Source: Oscillatoriales cyanobacterium
Lineage (GTDB): Bacteria > Cyanobacteriota > Cyanobacteriia > Cyanobacteriales > Microcoleaceae
Direction: 5' to 3'
Length of the DNA stretch: 64,000 nt
NCBI GenBank assembly: GCA_004292955.1
Contig: RDXX01000019.1
Location: 62,001 to 126,000, forward strand
The notes below the pieces were generated by a model. That model worked only from the letters and a program-made list of their open reading frames with translations, was not told where the DNA came from and did no database searches. The translations under genes and the position numbers were made by a program. Positions 14,041-59,746 of this stretch are shown here, piece by piece. Position 1 is the stretch's first letter. The number at the start of each line of letters is the position of its first letter.

Positions 14041-14469
14041 GCACCAAACAAAGTGAGACAAAATATTCTCCATTTACAGTTAACAGCATTGACTGGCTAT
14101 CATCGTTTAAGATTAGCGATGCCGGAAACCTAACTAACAACTAAGTTTCCATTACTACCCAAAATGTCCGACTGTAACAATGCCATAAAAAAAGACGGAA
14201 GAGGCGCTATGTAGTTGTATGTCAATGTCAAGCTGTGAGAGACAATGATTTTATAAAAGGATATGCCAGTTGGTCTGGAACTAATATTTAGCTGCATTCA
14301 AAAGTCATTTCAATCTGGGAAATCCTGATCATGCTGAAAGTAGGTTGTTAAGTTATCAAGGTAGCCTATGAAAAGTTAGAAGACAATGCAACTGTCAAAC
14401 GGATTATTACCCTTACTGTAACTATCTCTATCCATTAAAGACCCGTCGTACAGATTCCTTGAAGAGCGT
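14041..14469. other. Non-coding stretch after TnpB remnant
   Basis: No supported gene is seen on either strand. The base composition is AT-richer than the neighbouring genes, as expected for decayed mobile-element DNA. I recognise no RNA here. Confidence 0.4.
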
Positions 14470-14633
14470 TCAACAGTTGACAGTTGACAGTTGACAGTTG
14501 ACAGTTGACCGAAGGAGAGCGACCTCTACCTAGAAGGATGAGGATTGGAGTAATGAATAGTCTGATTTTAAATTCTCCCGATCGGGGTTCCGGCTTTCAA
14601 CCAATTCTTTCTGGTAAAATTTCAACTTCTAAC
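14470..14633 (+). repeat. Dispersed repeat family A, copy 1
   Basis: A GTTGACA tandem run (about 14472-14508) is followed by a conserved core. The core runs GCGACCTCTACC, then GGATTGGAGTAATGAATAG, then a GC-rich hairpin beginning TCTCCC, then AACCAATTCTTTCTGGTAAA. The same core occurs at about 26935-27045 and, inverted, at 56563-56675. GGATTGG can pair with CCAATTC to close the hairpin. It lies upstream of amiC. Confidence 0.85.
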
Positions 14634-18923: not shown

Positions 18924-18995
18924 TCCTCGGTAGCTCAGTGGCAGAGCGATCGGCTGTTAACCGATTGGTCGTAGGTTCAAATCCTACCCGGGGAG
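18924..18995 (+). tRNA. tRNA-Asn (GTT)
   Basis: A 72-nt cloverleaf with acceptor stem TCCTCGG/CCGGGGA, D-arm TAGCTCAGTGGCAGAGC, anticodon stem ATCGG/CCGAT around loop CTGTTAA (anticodon GTT at 18956-18958), and T-arm GTAGGTTCAAATCCTAC. The discriminator is G. CCA is not encoded. Confidence 0.97.
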
Positions 18996-19075: not shown

Positions 19076-19147
19076 ATGCAAACACTTTACCTGTATCGTC
19101 AGGAACCCAACTCTAAAGAGATTGGGCTTGCAAGAGAAATCAAGTAA
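19076..19147 (+). pseudogene. TnpB-type C-terminal fragment
   Basis: The frame from the ATG at 19076 reads MQTLYLY then RQEPNSKEIGLAREIK and stops at 19147. The R/K-Q-E-P phrase resembles the C-terminal tails of cyanobacterial TnpB proteins. A TATAAT-like sequence lies immediately before the ATG. I read this as the last codons of a tnpB gene fused by deletion to upstream sequence; a 23-residue peptide gene is the alternative. Confidence is limited because the fragment is short. Confidence 0.4.
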
Positions 19148-19411
19148 GCCATTCTGACCAGCCTAAGACCTCACGCAGGTCTACGTTATTTGGGTCACGA
19201 CACCCTGTGGATGCGACGCTAGTCCCCTGCCCTGTCGCTAGTAGTTAAACTGTTTCAAGGTCACTGAAACAGTGCTGCTAGCCGGAAAAAGCCCTTATAA
19301 CATTGACCGACAAGCGAACATTACCCGAAAGGGATTCGGAGACAACCATATCTCCACAGAGGGGCAACCATACCCCTCTAACCCCGAAAGGGGATTCAAG
19401 GCGGTTGAAAC
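19148..19411 (+). ncRNA. Possible omegaRNA/right-end region of a deleted TnpB element
   Basis: About 260 nt without coding sense, dense in hairpins: AGACCT/AGGTCT (19165-19181), CTGTTTC/GAAACAG (about 19250-19272), GAGGGG/CCCCTC (about 19359-19380) and CCCC-GAAA-GGGG (about 19382-19393). It ends GGCGGTTGAAACC. In IS200/605 and IS607 elements, the tnpB stop is followed by such a structured RNA whose 3' end is the element's right end. The boundary then lies about 18 bp before the antitoxin start. This is inference from position and structure. Confidence 0.4.
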
Positions 19412-19428
19412 CTTACCAAATATTTTTT

Positions 19429-19659
19429 ATGAGCTATCGCGATATCATCACCATAGAGCCAGATAAGCGTGGTGGCAAGCCCTGCATTCGTCGGATGCGA
19501 ATTACGGTTTACGATGTTCTTGGCTGGCTGGCTTCTGGAATGTCTATTACTGAGATTATTGACGACTTCCCAGAACTGACAGAAACAGATATTAGAGCCT
19601 GTTTAGAGTTTGTCGCCGATCGCGATCGTCGTTTAGTTGCTTCGGTGAGTGTCGCTTGA
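19429..19659 (+). CDS. DUF433 antitoxin-like protein
   Basis: A 76-residue protein that matches DUF433: YRDIITIEPDKRGGKPCIRR, the MRITVYDVLGWLASGMS helix-turn-helix region and TETDIRACLEFVADRDRR. DUF433 proteins are commonly paired with DUF5615 PIN-like partners as toxin-antitoxin modules, and that partner begins here inside its last codons (overlap at 19656-19659). The start at 19429 is chosen from family length; the upstream frame crosses the putative element tail and is not expected to be coding. Confidence 0.85.
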   Translation: MSYRDIITIEPDKRGGKPCIRRMRITVYDVLGWLASGMSITEIIDDFPELTETDIRACLEFVADRDRRLVASVSVA

Positions 19660-26894: not shown

Positions 26895-27048
26895 TTTCAG
26901 TCAGTTGACAGTTGACAGTTGACAGTTGACAGTTTGAGGGCGACCTCTACCTGGAAGGAAAAGGATTGGAGTAATGAATAGGCTTCTTTTAATTTCTCCC
27001 GATCGGGCGGGCGGGCTTTAAACCAATTCTTTCTGGTAAATTTTTACA
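26895..27048 (+). repeat. Dispersed repeat family A, copy 2
   Basis: A GTTGACA run (about 26900-26933) is followed by GCGACCTCTACC, GGATTGGAGTAATGAATAG, a CCCGATCGGGCGGGCGGG hairpin region, and AACCAATTCTTTCTGGTAAA. In this copy the closing stem AAAGGATTGG/CCAATTCTTT is 10 bp (one G-U). Confidence 0.85.
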
Positions 27049-33931: not shown

Positions 33932-34762
33932 TCACGTTTCTGCTACTTTCTGCAAGCTGGATTTGCGACGATCGGGATGGGATGACTGAACTCGGCGCTG
34001 ATCGCGATACAAGCGGAGGGCGTAAACTCCGGCGGCAGTTGACTGCAATTCTTTAATTACTGCTGCCATTTCGATCGGCAATTCTTCAATTTTCGCTACC
34101 GAAACCGGATGTTCCGACGGCAGCAAAACCGGAGCCGCCAGCGCTGCAAAAGTTATGTCGGCTGCGGATATTGTATCGCCTACTAAATAGGTTTTGCCAC
34201 CTGCTAATCTTCGATCGACAATCTCAAAAATTTCTTTGATTCCTTGCAGCGAACTGGCGGCGGAATCTGCTGTTATGTTGTAGACTTGCCGCACTTTGGC
34301 GCTAATCAACGGAAAGGCTATTTCAAACCCTATTCGCTCAAGTACGGGGGTACTGTTGCACCAAGCTCTTCGCATTGTTTTGCGATCGCCCGATCGATAA
34401 AAATATCCCCAATTGCGAGTATATTCTCCCAGTCTAGCATCAAATAACTCTTCAAGTGCTTCGACTTCTTGGCGCATTTCTACATTTGTCGGATACAAAT
34501 ACTGACCTGATGAACTGATTGTATCGAGGTAATGCAAAATATCTGTTGAATCTGTAAAATTGCCAGATTTGGTAACTAAAACAGGAACGCTGCTACCTCC
34601 GTTTTTGCTGGTGGCCGATCGGTGAAAAGGTGGTACGTGTCTTTCTTCAATGTAGGGAATTTTTAGCAAGTCAAGGGCCCACCGCACTTTTTCGCAGTAG
34701 TGACTGATGGGGATGGTGATGAGGCGGATAACTTCGGTATTGGCAATTGTTGAATGATTCAT
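33932..34762 (-). CDS. Glutathione S-transferase family protein
   Basis: A 276-residue protein with an N-terminal thioredoxin-like GST domain (IPISHYCEKVRWALDLLKIP; GSSVPVLVTKSGNFTDSTDI, with the cis-Pro) and an all-helical C-terminal domain (KTYLVGDTISAADITFAALA, containing the N-capping box S/T-x-x-D). The Cys in SHYCEKVRW suggests the omega or beta type rather than the Tyr/Ser type. It is the third gene of a TetR-thioesterase-GST string. The tail carries a basic stretch (RDQRRVQSSHPDRRKSSLQK). Role in detoxification is inferred. Confidence 0.88.
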   Translation of the reverse strand: MNHSTIANTEVIRLITIPISHYCEKVRWALDLLKIPYIEERHVPPFHRSATSKNGGSSVPVLVTKSGNFTDSTDILHYLDTISSSGQYLYPTNVEMRQEVEALEELFDARLGEYTRNWGYFYRSGDRKTMRRAWCNSTPVLERIGFEIAFPLISAKVRQVYNITADSAASSLQGIKEIFEIVDRRLAGGKTYLVGDTISAADITFAALAAPVLLPSEHPVSVAKIEELPIEMAAVIKELQSTAAGVYALRLYRDQRRVQSSHPDRRKSSLQKVAET

Positions 34763-37642: not shown

Positions 37643-37836
37643 AGGGTTCACCGCAACGCCGTCTTACCTCAGCTTTTGACCTGGTATTTTACCAGGTGGG
37701 CACCGTTGGCTCGGACTTAAAGTTTCTGGGTACAAGCCCAGTTTACTGCTGTCCAAACATCTTGATTCCCGAGAGTTAAGAGTTATAGATCAAAAAAACA
37801 TTATTGGCAGTCACCAACGTCGCAGTAGAACCTTTA
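37643..37836 (-). ncRNA. ssaA: 6S RNA
   Basis: A 190-nt minus-strand RNA with the 6S shape. The ends pair (GGTTC with GAACC, and CTGCGACG with CGTTGCGG), a large open bubble follows, and an inner arm is formed by CTGGG/CCCAG and ACCTGG/CCAGGT stems. 6S RNA binds RNA polymerase holoenzyme as a promoter mimic. In cyanobacteria the gene is known to be linked to purK, and purK lies 320 bp upstream here on the same strand. Identification rests on structure, length, context and the terminator; ends are approximate. Confidence 0.75.
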
Positions 37837-43619: not shown

Positions 43620-43632
43620 TGGAAGTTGTCGT

Positions 43633-43929
43633 TGAGCACTCTTAATAGGTACGTAGTTGCGCTTGAGCACTCTTAATAGGTACGTAGTTGCGCTTGAGCG
43701 CTCCGAAAGGTACGTAGTTGCGCTTGAGCGCTCCGAAAGGTACGTAGTTGCGCTTGAGCGCTCTTGATTATAATATATAAAGAGCGCTAAAGCGCAACTA
43801 CATACCTTGTCCGATCGCACATTGCTCTTGATAAATATATATAATCAAGAGCGCTGAAGCGCAACTACATACCTTGCTCTCGATCAACATATATATATAT
43901 AAAGAGCGCTGAAGCGCAACTACATACCT
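43633..43929. repeat. Tandem and inverted 30-bp palindromic repeats
   Basis: Four direct 30-31-bp units (GTACGTAGTTGCGCTTGAGC plus CTC) run from 43633 to about 43755. They are followed by inverted copies (GAGCGCTGAAGCGCAACTAC) at about 43782, 43850 and 43905, separated by A/T-rich TATA tracts. Another complete palindromic copy lies at 50128-50196. Confidence 0.85.
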
Positions 43930-43958
43930 TCGCCCAAGTTTTCATAATTTTCGCCTCC

Positions 43959-45872: not shown

Positions 45873-46245
45873 GGCGCAGAGAACGCAGAGGAAGAAAAGA
45901 GAAGTTTTTGAGAGAAATTGTTGGCATTGTACCAAATTCCGGACTCAATAAACTCGACTAAGGATGTTTTTTTGATCGAGCTTTTGTTCTCCAAGTTTGC
46001 GGAGTTCGCGGTTCGTTCCAAAAATCTATTTTACAACATCACATTTCCCGGAAATTGCGGCGCAGAGAACGCAGAGGAAGAAAAGGGAAGTTTTTGAGAG
46101 AAATTGTTGGCATTGTACCAAATTTCGGACTCAATAAACTCGACCAAGGATGTTTTTTTGATCGAGCTTTTGTTCTCCAAGTTTGCGGAGTTCGCGGTTC
46201 GTTCCAAAAATCTATTTTACAACATCACATTTCCCGGAAATTGCG
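45873..46245. repeat. 186-bp tandem duplication
   Basis: Two units, 45873-46058 and 46059-46244, differ at about three positions. The second ends 21 bp inside the UvrD-like gene, so its last codons and stop are also present in the first unit as a non-coding copy. Confidence 0.9.
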
Positions 46246-48639: not shown

Positions 48640-48810
48640 ATCCGCGTTTATCCGCGTTTATCTGCGGTTAAAAATCCCCAAAAATTCACCGAATAGCAAG
48701 GGTTTGAAGCCCCAGCATGAAGGCAGATTGTGATAAGAACGGAGTTTAAATCTCCGCTCTTATCACTTCGCTGTCAACTGTCAACTGTCAACTGTCAACT
48801 GTTTAACTCT
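48640..48810. repeat. TCCGCGTTTA and CAACTGT repeats
   Basis: CCGCGTTTATC-type units lie just upstream of the helicase start, and CAACTGT heptamers at about 48770-48802. The remaining spacer up to 48915 contains no gene. Confidence 0.65.
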
Positions 48811-49939: not shown

Positions 49940-50414
49940 GCATCGGGCATCGGGCATTGGGCATTGGGCATTGGGCATTGGTAGGGGCGGTGCCCCCGTG
50001 CCCGCCCTCTTACTCTTACTTGTCATTAGGTAGCGAGGCACCAAACGCCGAAATATTGCGATCGCACTTGATATCATTCCCAGCACTTCTGAACGCAACA
50101 GTTACTTTTATGGGATTTAATCTTTAGGTACGTAGTTGCGCTTCAGCGCTCTTTGCGTATATCTATGAAAGAGCGCTAAAGCGCAACTACGTACCTTTTT
50201 TTTTATTTAATGTAACAGTTGTGCAACTCCTGCCCAAATTCAGAATCGCAGATAATATAAGGTGCGTCGCGGTGAGATTGTCAATCTTTGTTTAGGAATT
50301 TTCGCTCGCGACACACCCTACCAATGACTGTCAACTGTCAACTGTCAACTGTCAACTGTCAACTGTCAACTGTCAACTGCCAACTGTCAACTGCCAACTG
50401 TCAACTGCCAACTG
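49940..50414. repeat. Spacer with heptamers and palindromes
   Basis: The 480-bp spacer holds GGGCATC/GGGCATT units (49938-49980), a long palindrome at 50128-50196 matching the 43.6-kb repeats (GGTACGTAGTTGCGCTTCAG and complement), a GGTGCGTCGCG/CGCGACACACC hairpin (50261-50318), and a CAACTGT/CAACTGC array (50330-50414). No gene is seen. Confidence 0.85.
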
Positions 50415-52611: not shown

Positions 52612-52614
52612 TTA

Positions 52615-52762
52615 GTTGACAGTTGACAGTTGACAGTTGACAGTTGTTAGGAAAGCAGTGGTCAGTTGTTAGTAGTCAACAGTCAACAGTCATTCGTAAC
52701 AAACAAATAACTAATAACTAATAACTAATCACAAATAACCAATAACTAATAACTAATCACAA
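52615..52762. repeat. TTGACAG and AATAACT repeats
   Basis: GTTGACA units (52614-52641) and AATAACTA/AATCACAA units (52700-52762) reach the start codon of the next gene. No clear ribosome site is left for it. Confidence 0.85.
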
Positions 52763-53464
52763 ATGACTAATAACGCAGAAGAAATTAAAACTATATTTAA
52801 TCGAATTGCACCAGTTTACAACCAATTGAACGACTGGTTAAGCTTGGGGCAGCACCGGATTTGGAAGCAAATGACGGTGCAATGGAGCTGTGCGGGCCCC
52901 GGAAATACTTGTTTAGACTTGTGCTGCGGCAGCGGCGATATAGCTTTGCTGCTGGCAAAACAAGCAGGGCCTACCGGTTCGGTATTTGGAGTAGATTTTT
53001 CTGCTGAACAATTGGCCGTTGCAGGTAAGCGCGATCGACCTTTTCTCACTCCTGCAAGTCCCATTACCTGGGTAGAAGCTGACGCCCTAGACTTGCCTTT
53101 TGCCGACAATTACTTCGACTGCGCCACCATGGGTTACGGCTTGCGTAACGTGACGGATATCCCCCGCAGTCTTCAGGAATTGCACCGCGTCCTCAAACCG
53201 GGCGCAAAGGCTGCTATTCTCGACCTCCACCGCCCCAGCAATTCCCTGATGCGGAGCTTTCAGCAGTTTTATCTAGATACTCTCGTGGTTCCCATTGCTC
53301 AGCAATTTGGCATGACTCAAGAATATGCCTACATTAATCCTAGTTTAGAAAAATTCCCGATCGGCGAGCAGCAAGTCGCGATCGCCCGCCAAGCCGGATT
53401 TGCCACCGCCACCCACTATCCCATTGCCGGAGCTATGATGGGAGTATTGGTGTTAGTCAGTTGA
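52763..53464 (+). CDS. menG: Demethylphylloquinone/2-phytyl-naphthoquinone methyltransferase
   Basis: A 233-residue SAM-dependent methyltransferase of the UbiE/MenG family, which in cyanobacteria adds the ring methyl of phylloquinone. It has IFNRIAPVYNQLNDWLSLGQ, HRIWKQMTVQW, the SAM motif CLDLCCGSGDIALLLAK, VDFSAEQL, DLPFADNYFDCATMGYGLRN and LHRVLKPGAKAAILDL. Start ATG lies directly after an AATCACAA repeat array. A TTGACAG array follows the stop. Confidence 0.93.
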   Translation: MTNNAEEIKTIFNRIAPVYNQLNDWLSLGQHRIWKQMTVQWSCAGPGNTCLDLCCGSGDIALLLAKQAGPTGSVFGVDFSAEQLAVAGKRDRPFLTPASPITWVEADALDLPFADNYFDCATMGYGLRNVTDIPRSLQELHRVLKPGAKAAILDLHRPSNSLMRSFQQFYLDTLVVPIAQQFGMTQEYAYINPSLEKFPIGEQQVAIARQAGFATATHYPIAGAMMGVLVLVS

Positions 53465-53620
53465 CAGTTGACAGTTGACAGTTGACAGTTGCTATTAGTT
53501 ATTTGTTACTTGTTACTTGTTACTTGTTACTTGTTGTTCCATTTTCCGATAACCAATAACTAATAACTAATAACTAATAACTAATAACCAATGCCCCATG
53601 CCCAATTCCCAATTTCCCAA
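53465..53620. repeat. TTGACAG, TTACTTG, AATAACT and AATTCCC repeats
   Basis: The entire 160-bp menG-DUF445 spacer consists of four short-repeat families in series: GTTGACA, ACTTGTT, AACTAATA and CCCAATTCC. The next start follows within 10 bp. Confidence 0.85.
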
Positions 53621-56559: not shown

Positions 56560-56706
56560 AGACCTTTTACCAGAAAGAATTGGTTGAAAGCCCCAAGCCG
56601 GAGCGGGGAGAAATGAAAATCAGACTATTCATTACTCCAATCCTCGGACTTAAGGGTAGAGGTCGCTCTCAAACTGTCAACTGTCAACTGTCAACTGTCA
56701 ACTGAT
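56560..56706 (-). repeat. Dispersed repeat family A, copy 3 (inverted)
   Basis: On the minus strand: a GTTGACA run, GAGAGCGACCTCTACC, GAGGATTGGAGTAATGAATA, a CCCCGCTCCGGCTTGGGG hairpin, and AACCAATTCTTTCTGGTAAA. The hairpin differs in sequence from the other copies but keeps paired arms. Confidence 0.85.
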
Positions 56707-59193: not shown

Positions 59194-59746
59194 TTTAATT
59201 AATTATTAGTTATGAATGATAGCCTTTCTAAAATAGATGAGGTATGTCTGGTAATTGGTAATTAGTAATTGGTAATTGGTAATTGGCACGGCACCAGCTT
59301 TTGAACCGCAAGCTTTTCGGTGATTACCGATTACTGATTACCGAAAACCCCAAGCGTACCTCATTTTTCGATCGAACTGCTATATGAGTTTTGACTTTTG
59401 AATTTTGAGATTCTTGGACGCACTCTTGACTCTAAAACCCGGTGCGAGGAGTAAATATTTAGCGATCAAACCGAGGACTTACGAGCAGAAATCGGGTTTC
59501 TTTCGGTAATTCTTATTTGAGCGAGCAAATTTTGAATTTTCAGCAAGGGTAAAGACGATTAGGAATTTCATTCTGCCAACTGCCAACGGCCAACTGCCAA
59601 CTGCCAACTGCCAACTGTCAACTGTCAACTGTCAACTGTCCGATGAGTTTGGGAGTATTGAGTGAAGAGAATAGTTGGGAGCGATCGGCAATGCAAGTTG
59701 CCTTCACTCAAAAATTCTCTTCCAACTCAACACTCACAACTCAAAA
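59194..59746. repeat. Spacer with GTAATTG and CAACTGC repeats
   Basis: The 550-bp interval downstream of infB holds GTAATTG units (59238-59285), CAACTGC/CAACTGT heptamers (59577-59640) and an inverted pair TTGAGTGAAG/CTTCACTCAA (59658-59667 and 59702-59711) that may terminate infB. No gene is seen. Confidence 0.7.

Follow-up and report, generated by a model that had tools for sequence, protein, structure and literature searches.

Filamentous cyanobacteria harbor STRR heptanucleotide repeats, which are tandem repeats of seven bases, and small dispersed repeats (SDRs). SDRs, the subject of Elhai et al. 2008, are reportedly mobile, structured, 21-27 nt in length and often embedded in tandem heptamers. 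The miniature elements of thermophilic Synechococcus treated by Nelson et al. 2012 are said to be non-autonomous IS derivatives and largely intergenic. Citing that study, the covered text of another paper presents them as MITEs derived from ISSoc2 (PMC10969869). PATEs, which in the covered parts of their descriptions occur in Haloquadratum (PMC3119063) and Halanaerobium (PMC7290912), are gene-less and have near-terminal palindromes related to IS605-type ends. For IS608, the covered sections of PMC5934647 give the cleavage sites TTAC and TCAA, the guides AAAG and GAAT, pairing of A+16 with T-3 and of A+17 with T-4, and a preference for C after TTAC. As read from these letters, the rule is that guide base 1 pairs with cleavage base 2 and guide base 2 with cleavage base 1, which both IS608 pairs fit; judging from the same two pairs, guide base 4 would pair with cleavage base 4.

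The repeated element analyzed here, designated family A, is very probably a non-autonomous IS200/IS605-type mobile element (PATE-like MITE) of Microcoleus. The window, a stretch of 64,000 nucleotides, comes from an Oscillatoriales cyanobacterium genome of 7.29 Mb in 163 contigs, and a sequence-only reading had noted in it a structured element in three copies, each with a (TTGACAG)n run directly 5'. These copies are real and lie where that reading placed them, and in an nhmmer search with an own-genome family profile they were the only matches in the window (E 3.4e-32 to 2.4e-28). On an 858-kb set, the profile gave 32 matches at E<1e-3 versus 0 in the reversed sequence used as a control, and the 27 copies in 858,347 bases correspond to 31.5 per Mb. 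Across the whole genome, the core motif GATTGGAGTAATGAATAG with at most two mismatches has 94 forward and 95 reverse matches (189; reversed-pattern control, 0). The supposed three-copy element is therefore represented in the window by 3 of about 190 genome copies, and the absence of further copies, once named as grounds for dismissing it, is contradicted.

Core matches were found in 15 of 59 genomes (own genome included), that is, in 15 of 29 from the same genus and 0 of 30 from outside it. First-look candidates numbered 58 to 237 in ten genomes of the genus, counts that are unconfirmed, with about 14 per genome scored, and genomes without a match still give 4 to 46 such candidates. At least 75 stretches came from named genomes, the titles listed being Microcoleus, Lyngbya sp. 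CCAP 1446/10, Phorm 6, Oscillatoriales and cyanobacterial MAGs; from the titles of matching records we infer Microcoleus as the host genus. One copy (L316) lies at the extreme end of JAJAZF010000092.1, a contig titled Chamaesiphon, where the 15 longest matches to the compared sequence are confined to the element and its edges; contamination, a chimera or transfer could each account for it. At another place (L047/L235; G000:C24, about 34160-34400), two family A copies stand head to tail about 150 bp apart. A sibling subfamily, A2, with the core GAATGAAACAGTGAATAATTTTG, has four copies in the sequence searched (L192, L205, L212 and L214).

On the transposon strand, which is the minus strand for copies 1 and 2, the left part of the element reads TTAC^CAGAAAGAATTGGTTGAAAG (^ marks a junction), followed by the left hairpin region and, further on, by ATTACTC and CAAT; the right part runs from CAAT through the hairpin CCTCATCCTTCTAGGTAGAGG and a spacer with (TCAACTG)n to TGAA^ (Table 1). 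CAAT, the right guide, abuts the 5' side of an imperfect 21-nt hairpin and is intact (ATTG on the plus strand) in 82 of the 86 own-genome copies, and the left guide AAAG, at +17 to +20, is intact (CTTT on the plus strand) in 84 of the 86. The spacer from the right hairpin to the right cleavage site measures 50 nt in copy 1 and 44 nt in copy 2, versus 6 nt in local ISs, and the right stem of copy 2 is altered (CCTTT). At 135-145 bp in the window, the element is too short for a Y1 HUH TnpA gene.

Table 1. Family A features in the window (numbered from its first letter; ^ marks a junction)
Feature	Position	Strand	Basis and remarks
Copy 1, whole element, 145 bp	14469..14613	-	TTAC^CAGAAAG...TTGAA^ on transposon strand; empty sites in G016 and G001
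Copy 1, right cleavage tetranucleotide C_R TGAA (TTCA on +)	14469..14472	-	Missing from empty site
Copy 1, heptamer array (CTGTCAA)n inside right end	14473..14509	-	Tandem Repeats Finder; missing from empty site
Copy 1, right hairpin IP_R	14523..14543	-	Centroid fold
Copy 1, putative right guide G_R CAAT (ATTG on +)	14544..14547	-	Directly 5' of IP_R
Copy 1, left hairpin region IP_L, variable, weakly folding	14577..14593	-	Module variation, energies
Copy 1, putative left guide G_L AAAG (CTTT on +)	14594..14597	-	Near-invariant across copies
Copy 1, target/left cleavage TTAC (GTAA on +), host sequence	14614..14617	-	Present in empty sites
Copy 2, whole element, 140 bp	26896..27035	-	Array 26902-26934; target GTAA 27036-27039
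Copy 3, whole element, eroded at its right tip, about 135 bp	about 56571..56705	+	Minus in the terms of the sequence-only reading; target TTAC 56567-56570

The extent of the mobile unit was established from empty sites. Among 175 copies, the 124 with a recognisable tip and both flanks were searched and 51 were dropped; 22 had some match, and 13 copies, representing 12 distinct sites, were seamless on both sides, the remaining matches being near-seamless, nested or repeat-driven and left out of this count. At the 12 seamless sites, the missing block is TTCA...array...core...TTTCTG, no target duplication occurs at any of them, and the flanking GTAA (TTAC on the transposon strand) is already in the empty site at 10 of the 12, with GTTA and GTCA at the other two. 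In one example, with flanks 99% identical, the empty site reads AAGTCTGA^GTAAGTTT. The (TTGACAG)n array, earlier described as lying next to the element, is therefore part of it, and insertion leaves no duplicated target. Unit, ends and insertion beside a pre-existing TTAC without target duplication are thus established. Copy 1 reads AAGAGCG^TTCAACAG...TTTCTG^GTAAAATT when occupied and AAAAGCG^GTAAAATT in G016, where the empty site is seamless (L090), and the G001 empty site (L116) deviates by one base; MAFFT misplaced the gap here, and the junction was taken from the sequences and the empty-site test. Copy 2 reads GTGACT^TTCAGTCAG...TTTCTG^GTAAATTTTTAC versus ...CACT^GTAAATTTTTAC in G013, with seamless empty sites in G013, G020 and G012 and near-seamless ones in G019, G018 and G002. 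For copy 3, the left junction is clear against G001 (TTTTAC there) and the other is unclean, G001 having about 45 extra bp.

Beyond the empty sites, GTAA stands at the right flank of 61 of 86 own-genome copies and 73 of 89 copies from other genomes, and C directly follows TTAC in 28 of 66 own-genome copies and in 23 of 62 from other genomes, raw counts that may reflect the preference described for IS608. The intergenic location is also established, as 1 of the 27 copies in 858 kb lies inside an ORF of at least 450 nt, such ORFs, called mechanically on both strands, covering 70.5% of that sequence. All three window copies are intergenic: copy 1 lies between an alpha/beta hydrolase gene and an AMIN/amidase gene, copy 2 between DNA polymerase III delta and a 379-aa ORF without a Pfam match, and copy 3 between a DUF1400 gene and a DegT/DnrJ aminotransferase gene.

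The ends of family A follow the IS608 code. Judged by sequence only, a guide fitting this code stands 5' of each subterminal hairpin: the left pair TTAC/AAAG is that of IS608, one base further from the tip (+17 to +20 versus +16 to +19 in IS608), and on the right the code applied to CAAT predicts TGNA, TGAA being observed. The right hairpin is subterminal, imperfect and 21 nt long, and its dominant form, (((((.(((...))).))))), resembles the IP_R of the full IS L180 in topology. In sibling A2, the right guide is CATT in two of the four copies and CAAT in the other two; under the pairing rule as read above, the third guide base is free.

Likely relatives occur in the same genus. The own genome has 13 Y1_Tnp matches, and its IS200-like TnpAs number six (L177-L182). 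L179 and L180 are IS605-type elements in which tnpA and tnpB are divergent and the right end has the form GAAT-hairpin-AGTATTTCAA. GAAT, a hairpin and a TCAA end were recognised by eye at 25 of 30 tnpB loci, among them L180, with spacer variants at L256, L272 and L277; L263 has CAAT but a TCAA end, against the code unless the element is dead, and L268, L275, L276 and L278 show no GAAT-hairpin-TCAA end. Inspection of the 30 tnpB loci revealed no autonomous element with CAAT/TGAA. For 4 of 12 lineage loci (L180; L251; L253; L265 = L358 = L378), lying in G000, G023, G001 and G013, alignment of the left end to the family A left end gives scores of 11-13; one more, in G019, scores 9, and seven (L179 and loci in G005, G008, G010, G011, G017 and G018) score at most 4. 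In a control run with family A masked, the best of 158 own-genome 4.5-kb stretches scored 9, some high controls resembling IS left ends. Comparison of the sequences thus indicates that one end, the left, is similar to that of a full IS605-type element of the same genus. The lineage loci most like family A are L251 (G023), L253 (G001), L358 (G013), L230 (G000) and L268 (G019). All five genomes with matching left ends are element-rich and six of the other seven are not, a post hoc observation on loci picked as best matches, and we treat the co-occurrence as no more than a lead. The matching left ends of G023 and G001 lie about 100 bp before tnpB, without room for an intact tnpA. In A2, AATGGGTTTAAAG from the left end of L180 is present in three of the four copies; the family A array is likewise present in three of the four.

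The TnpA of L180 belongs to Y1_Tnp (E 1.2e-36), its best solved relative being ISHp608 TnpA (E 2.1e-19). A search for L180-type TnpA at least 70% identical found it intact in 2 of the 10 most candidate-rich genomes (G000 and G013), intact also in G005, G008, G010, G011, G017 and G018, which have few or no copies, broken in G004, and absent from G001, G009, G016, G019, G023, G024 and G027; Y1_Tnp matches number none in G023, one weak in G009 and two in G027. L180-type TnpA was accordingly rejected as a proven driver, as genomes that have it are not those with the most copies. The transposase may have been lost following a burst, or may be missing from the assemblies, or another enzyme may serve. 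A search for left or right ends lacking a partner, as expected of an autonomous family A element, yielded only decayed copies and sibling A2 in the sequence searched.

Heptamer arrays are present in 81 of the 86 own-genome copies, with 1 to 14 counted units (mode 4), and TTCA lies within 12 nt of the array in 66 of these 81. The TTCA tip occurs at 16 of 21 arrays adjoining an element (A or sibling) versus 5 of 42 stand-alone arrays, which assigns the tip to the element. Of 63 perfect arrays of at least three units in the stretches read, 42 stand alone; heptamer arrays also exist independently of the element. Element-free arrays built from the same or a similar unit lie in the window at 48771-48802, 50327-50414, 52614-52646, 53458-53491 and 59573-59638. 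At L206, a (TTGACAG)5 array at + 18631 (0-based) is directly followed by GTAAAATTT, as if the core between array and target had been deleted. The window further contains another repeat family, GAGCGCT(A/G)AAGCGCAACTAC, at 43.8-43.9 kb (43624-43930) and once at 50.2 kb (50158-50197), with a 30-bp tandem repeat beside it at 43624-43763, and a 186-bp tandem duplication, 98% identical, at 45873-46244.

In the mechanism that we propose, a Y1 HUH transposase acting in trans would bind both subterminal hairpins of a single DNA strand, where the guides AAAG and CAAT would pair with the cleavage sites TTAC and TGAA. The single strand would leave as a circle and re-insert 3' of another TTAC, and the variable (TTGACAG)n array between right hairpin and cleavage site would move with the element; the transposase, the circle and any strand preference we infer. 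In copies such as copy 3, TCGCTCTCAA after the right hairpin places TCAA at the position where the ISs are cut, which may be read as the former cleavage site, beyond which the array was added. As TCAA is part of every heptamer, the old guide GAAT would presumably direct a cut ahead of the array, and a switched guide could let the array travel. A wider reading, which we consider a serious possibility somewhat short of probable, is that an IS608-type element underwent natural re-programming of its right guide, from GAAT/TCAA to CAAT/TGAA, so that it ignores the heptamer TCAA and the array becomes mobile cargo; this transposable tandem repeat would seed a variable-length array at each site, with the hairpin arms rapidly reshuffled.

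That the element is structured and repeated, as the sequence-only reading proposed, is supported. GGATTGG and CCAATTC are complementary, but these bases hardly vary and covariation therefore cannot test their pairing. Covariation elsewhere was tested by swapping arms between copies. For the right hairpin, none of 50 base-shuffled versions was as good, and 178 of 200 swaps of the 5' arm were as good or better; such swaps do not worsen folding, and the appeal to compensatory changes is weak. The left hairpin, evaluated in 159 of the 175 copies (16 outside the pattern), has a mean of -1.67 versus -1.47 kcal/mol when swapped, with 0 of 200 swaps as good; on 102 distinct sequences, 2 of 200 swaps were as good, and base-shuffled modules were worse (0 of 50 as good). 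Against shuffles, the cores of copies 1, 2 and 3 fold with z of +1.0, -0.6 and -2.2, only copy 3 folding better; centroid folds show the right hairpin in copies 1 and 3 and not as a whole in copy 2. The left hairpin is modular, a small set of 5' arms, among them CCGGAA (48), CCTCTC (30), CCCCAA (22) and CCCGCC (21) of the 159, being combined with many 3' ends, including GATCGGG (38), TGTAGGG (26) and TTGAGGG (25).

Fifteen copy pairs (14 G000 loci) occupy the same place in G000 and another genome, and divergence was counted in the five whose flanks are 96% identical or more. The flanks of these pairs show 41 differences in 2,725 positions (1.5%). Within the element, the counts are 2 in 170 (1.2%) for the middle constant segment, 4 in 100 for the end segment, 29 in 333 for the array, 8 in 115 (7%) for the right hairpin and 15 in 86 (17%) for the left hairpin region. 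One pair has no differences, and another varies in the array alone. Hairpin arms thus change faster than flanks at orthologous copies, and no p-value is attached, since differences within a module are not independent events. At the orthologous sites L319/L391 and L281/L387, the left hairpin changed on one side and the other side was kept. L240 and L296 share a private change beside the guide, indicating a single insertion whose hairpins changed on both sides. L006 and L134, considered as a further pair, are neighbours and not orthologues. The faster change probably stems from gene conversion over small tracts, the roughly 190 copies having identical constant segments; alternatively, a targeted process may change the hairpin arms.

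The repeated, intergenic and partly palindromic character of family A would also suit the gene of a structured regulatory RNA or an sRNA, dispersed through the genome by copying and under selection on RNA structure. Agreeing with the earlier reading, no Rfam family matched the element, either at gathering score across the whole window or at E<=10 for the copy 1 stretch (copies 2 and 3 being covered at gathering score). Together with the weak covariation in arm swaps, the precise, scarless presence or absence at a fixed target and the restriction of matches to 15 of 29 genomes within a single genus, this makes the RNA explanation highly unlikely. The structure that matters is most likely that of small hairpins formed by single-stranded DNA rather than by an RNA. 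The window's own RNAs lie elsewhere: a HEARO RNA (RF02033, 135.8 bits) at 19098-19324 (+), shortly after a tRNA (18924-18995), overlaps the mechanical start of a DUF433 ORF (19303-19659) that is not IscB, and a 6S RNA (RF00013, 100.8 bits) lies at 37644-37831 (-). HEARO/IscB was considered as a relative of family A and rejected by inspection, the HEARO RNA being a separate locus. Just as improbable as an RNA gene is a small dispersed repeat of the Nostoc SDR type, spreading via RNA intermediates and embedded in heptamer arrays: such embedding is reported of SDRs, but family A, at 135-145 bp in the window, is longer than the 21-27 nt given for SDRs, and it has a DNA cleavage code with the target TTAC. 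An ordinary MITE of a DDE transposase would be short, non-coding, intergenic and high in copy number, as family A is, and would carry terminal inverted repeats and a target duplication; however, by sequence the tips TTCAACAG and CAGAAAG are not inverted repeats, and the lack of duplication at the 12 seamless sites reduces this explanation to a negligible one.

A REP/REPIN-type element moved by a domesticated RAYT transposase, and not by an IS200/IS605 TnpA, merits more weight, yet is still unlikely. RAYT-like-looking Y1 genes are present in the own genome (L183-L187), the one weak Y1 match of candidate-rich G009 is a 203-aa frame, and REPs, too, have a guide tetranucleotide 5' of a hairpin in the covered text of PMC6006769. 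However, the same text gives REP heads as GT[AG]G, whereas the family A guides are AAAG and CAAT; its left end matches IS605-type left ends; and the 13 Y1 loci, searched up to 1.5 kb on each side, contain no family A motif except heptamer arrays. Neither a GT[AG]G head nor, at the 13 Y1 loci, an association with a flanking RAYT gene was found for family A. Several of the L183-L187 genes have flanking repeats of their own, for instance CACAGGCAAGATGCCTGTGCCACAA at L185. Another Y1 gene, L182 (G000:C17:29615-29959), has the motif YIRNQAVHH and is flanked on both sides by a repeat with GGCGGTTGAAACCGC; its motif resembles that of subclass 1.2, generally without typical terminal IS200 structures according to the covered part of PMC6006769.

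Returning to family A as a non-autonomous IS200/IS605-type element, the view that no named family fits was mistaken at the level of kind, as its ends follow the IS200/IS605 code and gene-less elements with IS605-type ends are already known. Among the titles and abstract openings covered, none describes such an element, the covered text of a Microcoleus genome paper treats transposable elements in general only (PMC8546630), and the covered passages of the literature mention neither a switched right guide nor an embedded heptamer array. The element offers an explanation for one class of heptamer arrays in filamentous cyanobacteria and suggests that some puzzling tandem repeats can spread as transposon cargo; if the re-programming reading is true, a variable-length repeat would be planted at each new site. 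With a changed guide, a matching cleavage site and about 190 copies per genome, it would provide a natural test of the IS608 guide code and a system for asking what spacer length a Y1 transposase tolerates between hairpin and cleavage site, and its insertions could serve as presence/absence markers for Microcoleus genomes.

Compared with IS608 and other IS200/IS605 elements, family A shares the TTAC target, the AAAG left guide, a guide 5' of the right hairpin and the lack of target duplication, whereas it is gene-less, has the right pair CAAT/TGAA in place of GAAT/TCAA and carries an array before the cleavage site. Like PATEs, it has no gene, no inverted terminal repeats and near-terminal palindromes related to IS605-type ends, the left palindrome being weak; unlike family A, PATEs occur in archaea and Halanaerobium, and their covered descriptions include neither tandem-repeat cargo nor a switched guide. 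The miniature elements of thermophilic Synechococcus, compared by description only, resemble it in being cyanobacterial, non-autonomous and largely intergenic. In contrast to STRR repeats and SDRs, the heptamer array of family A is an integral part of a mobile element.
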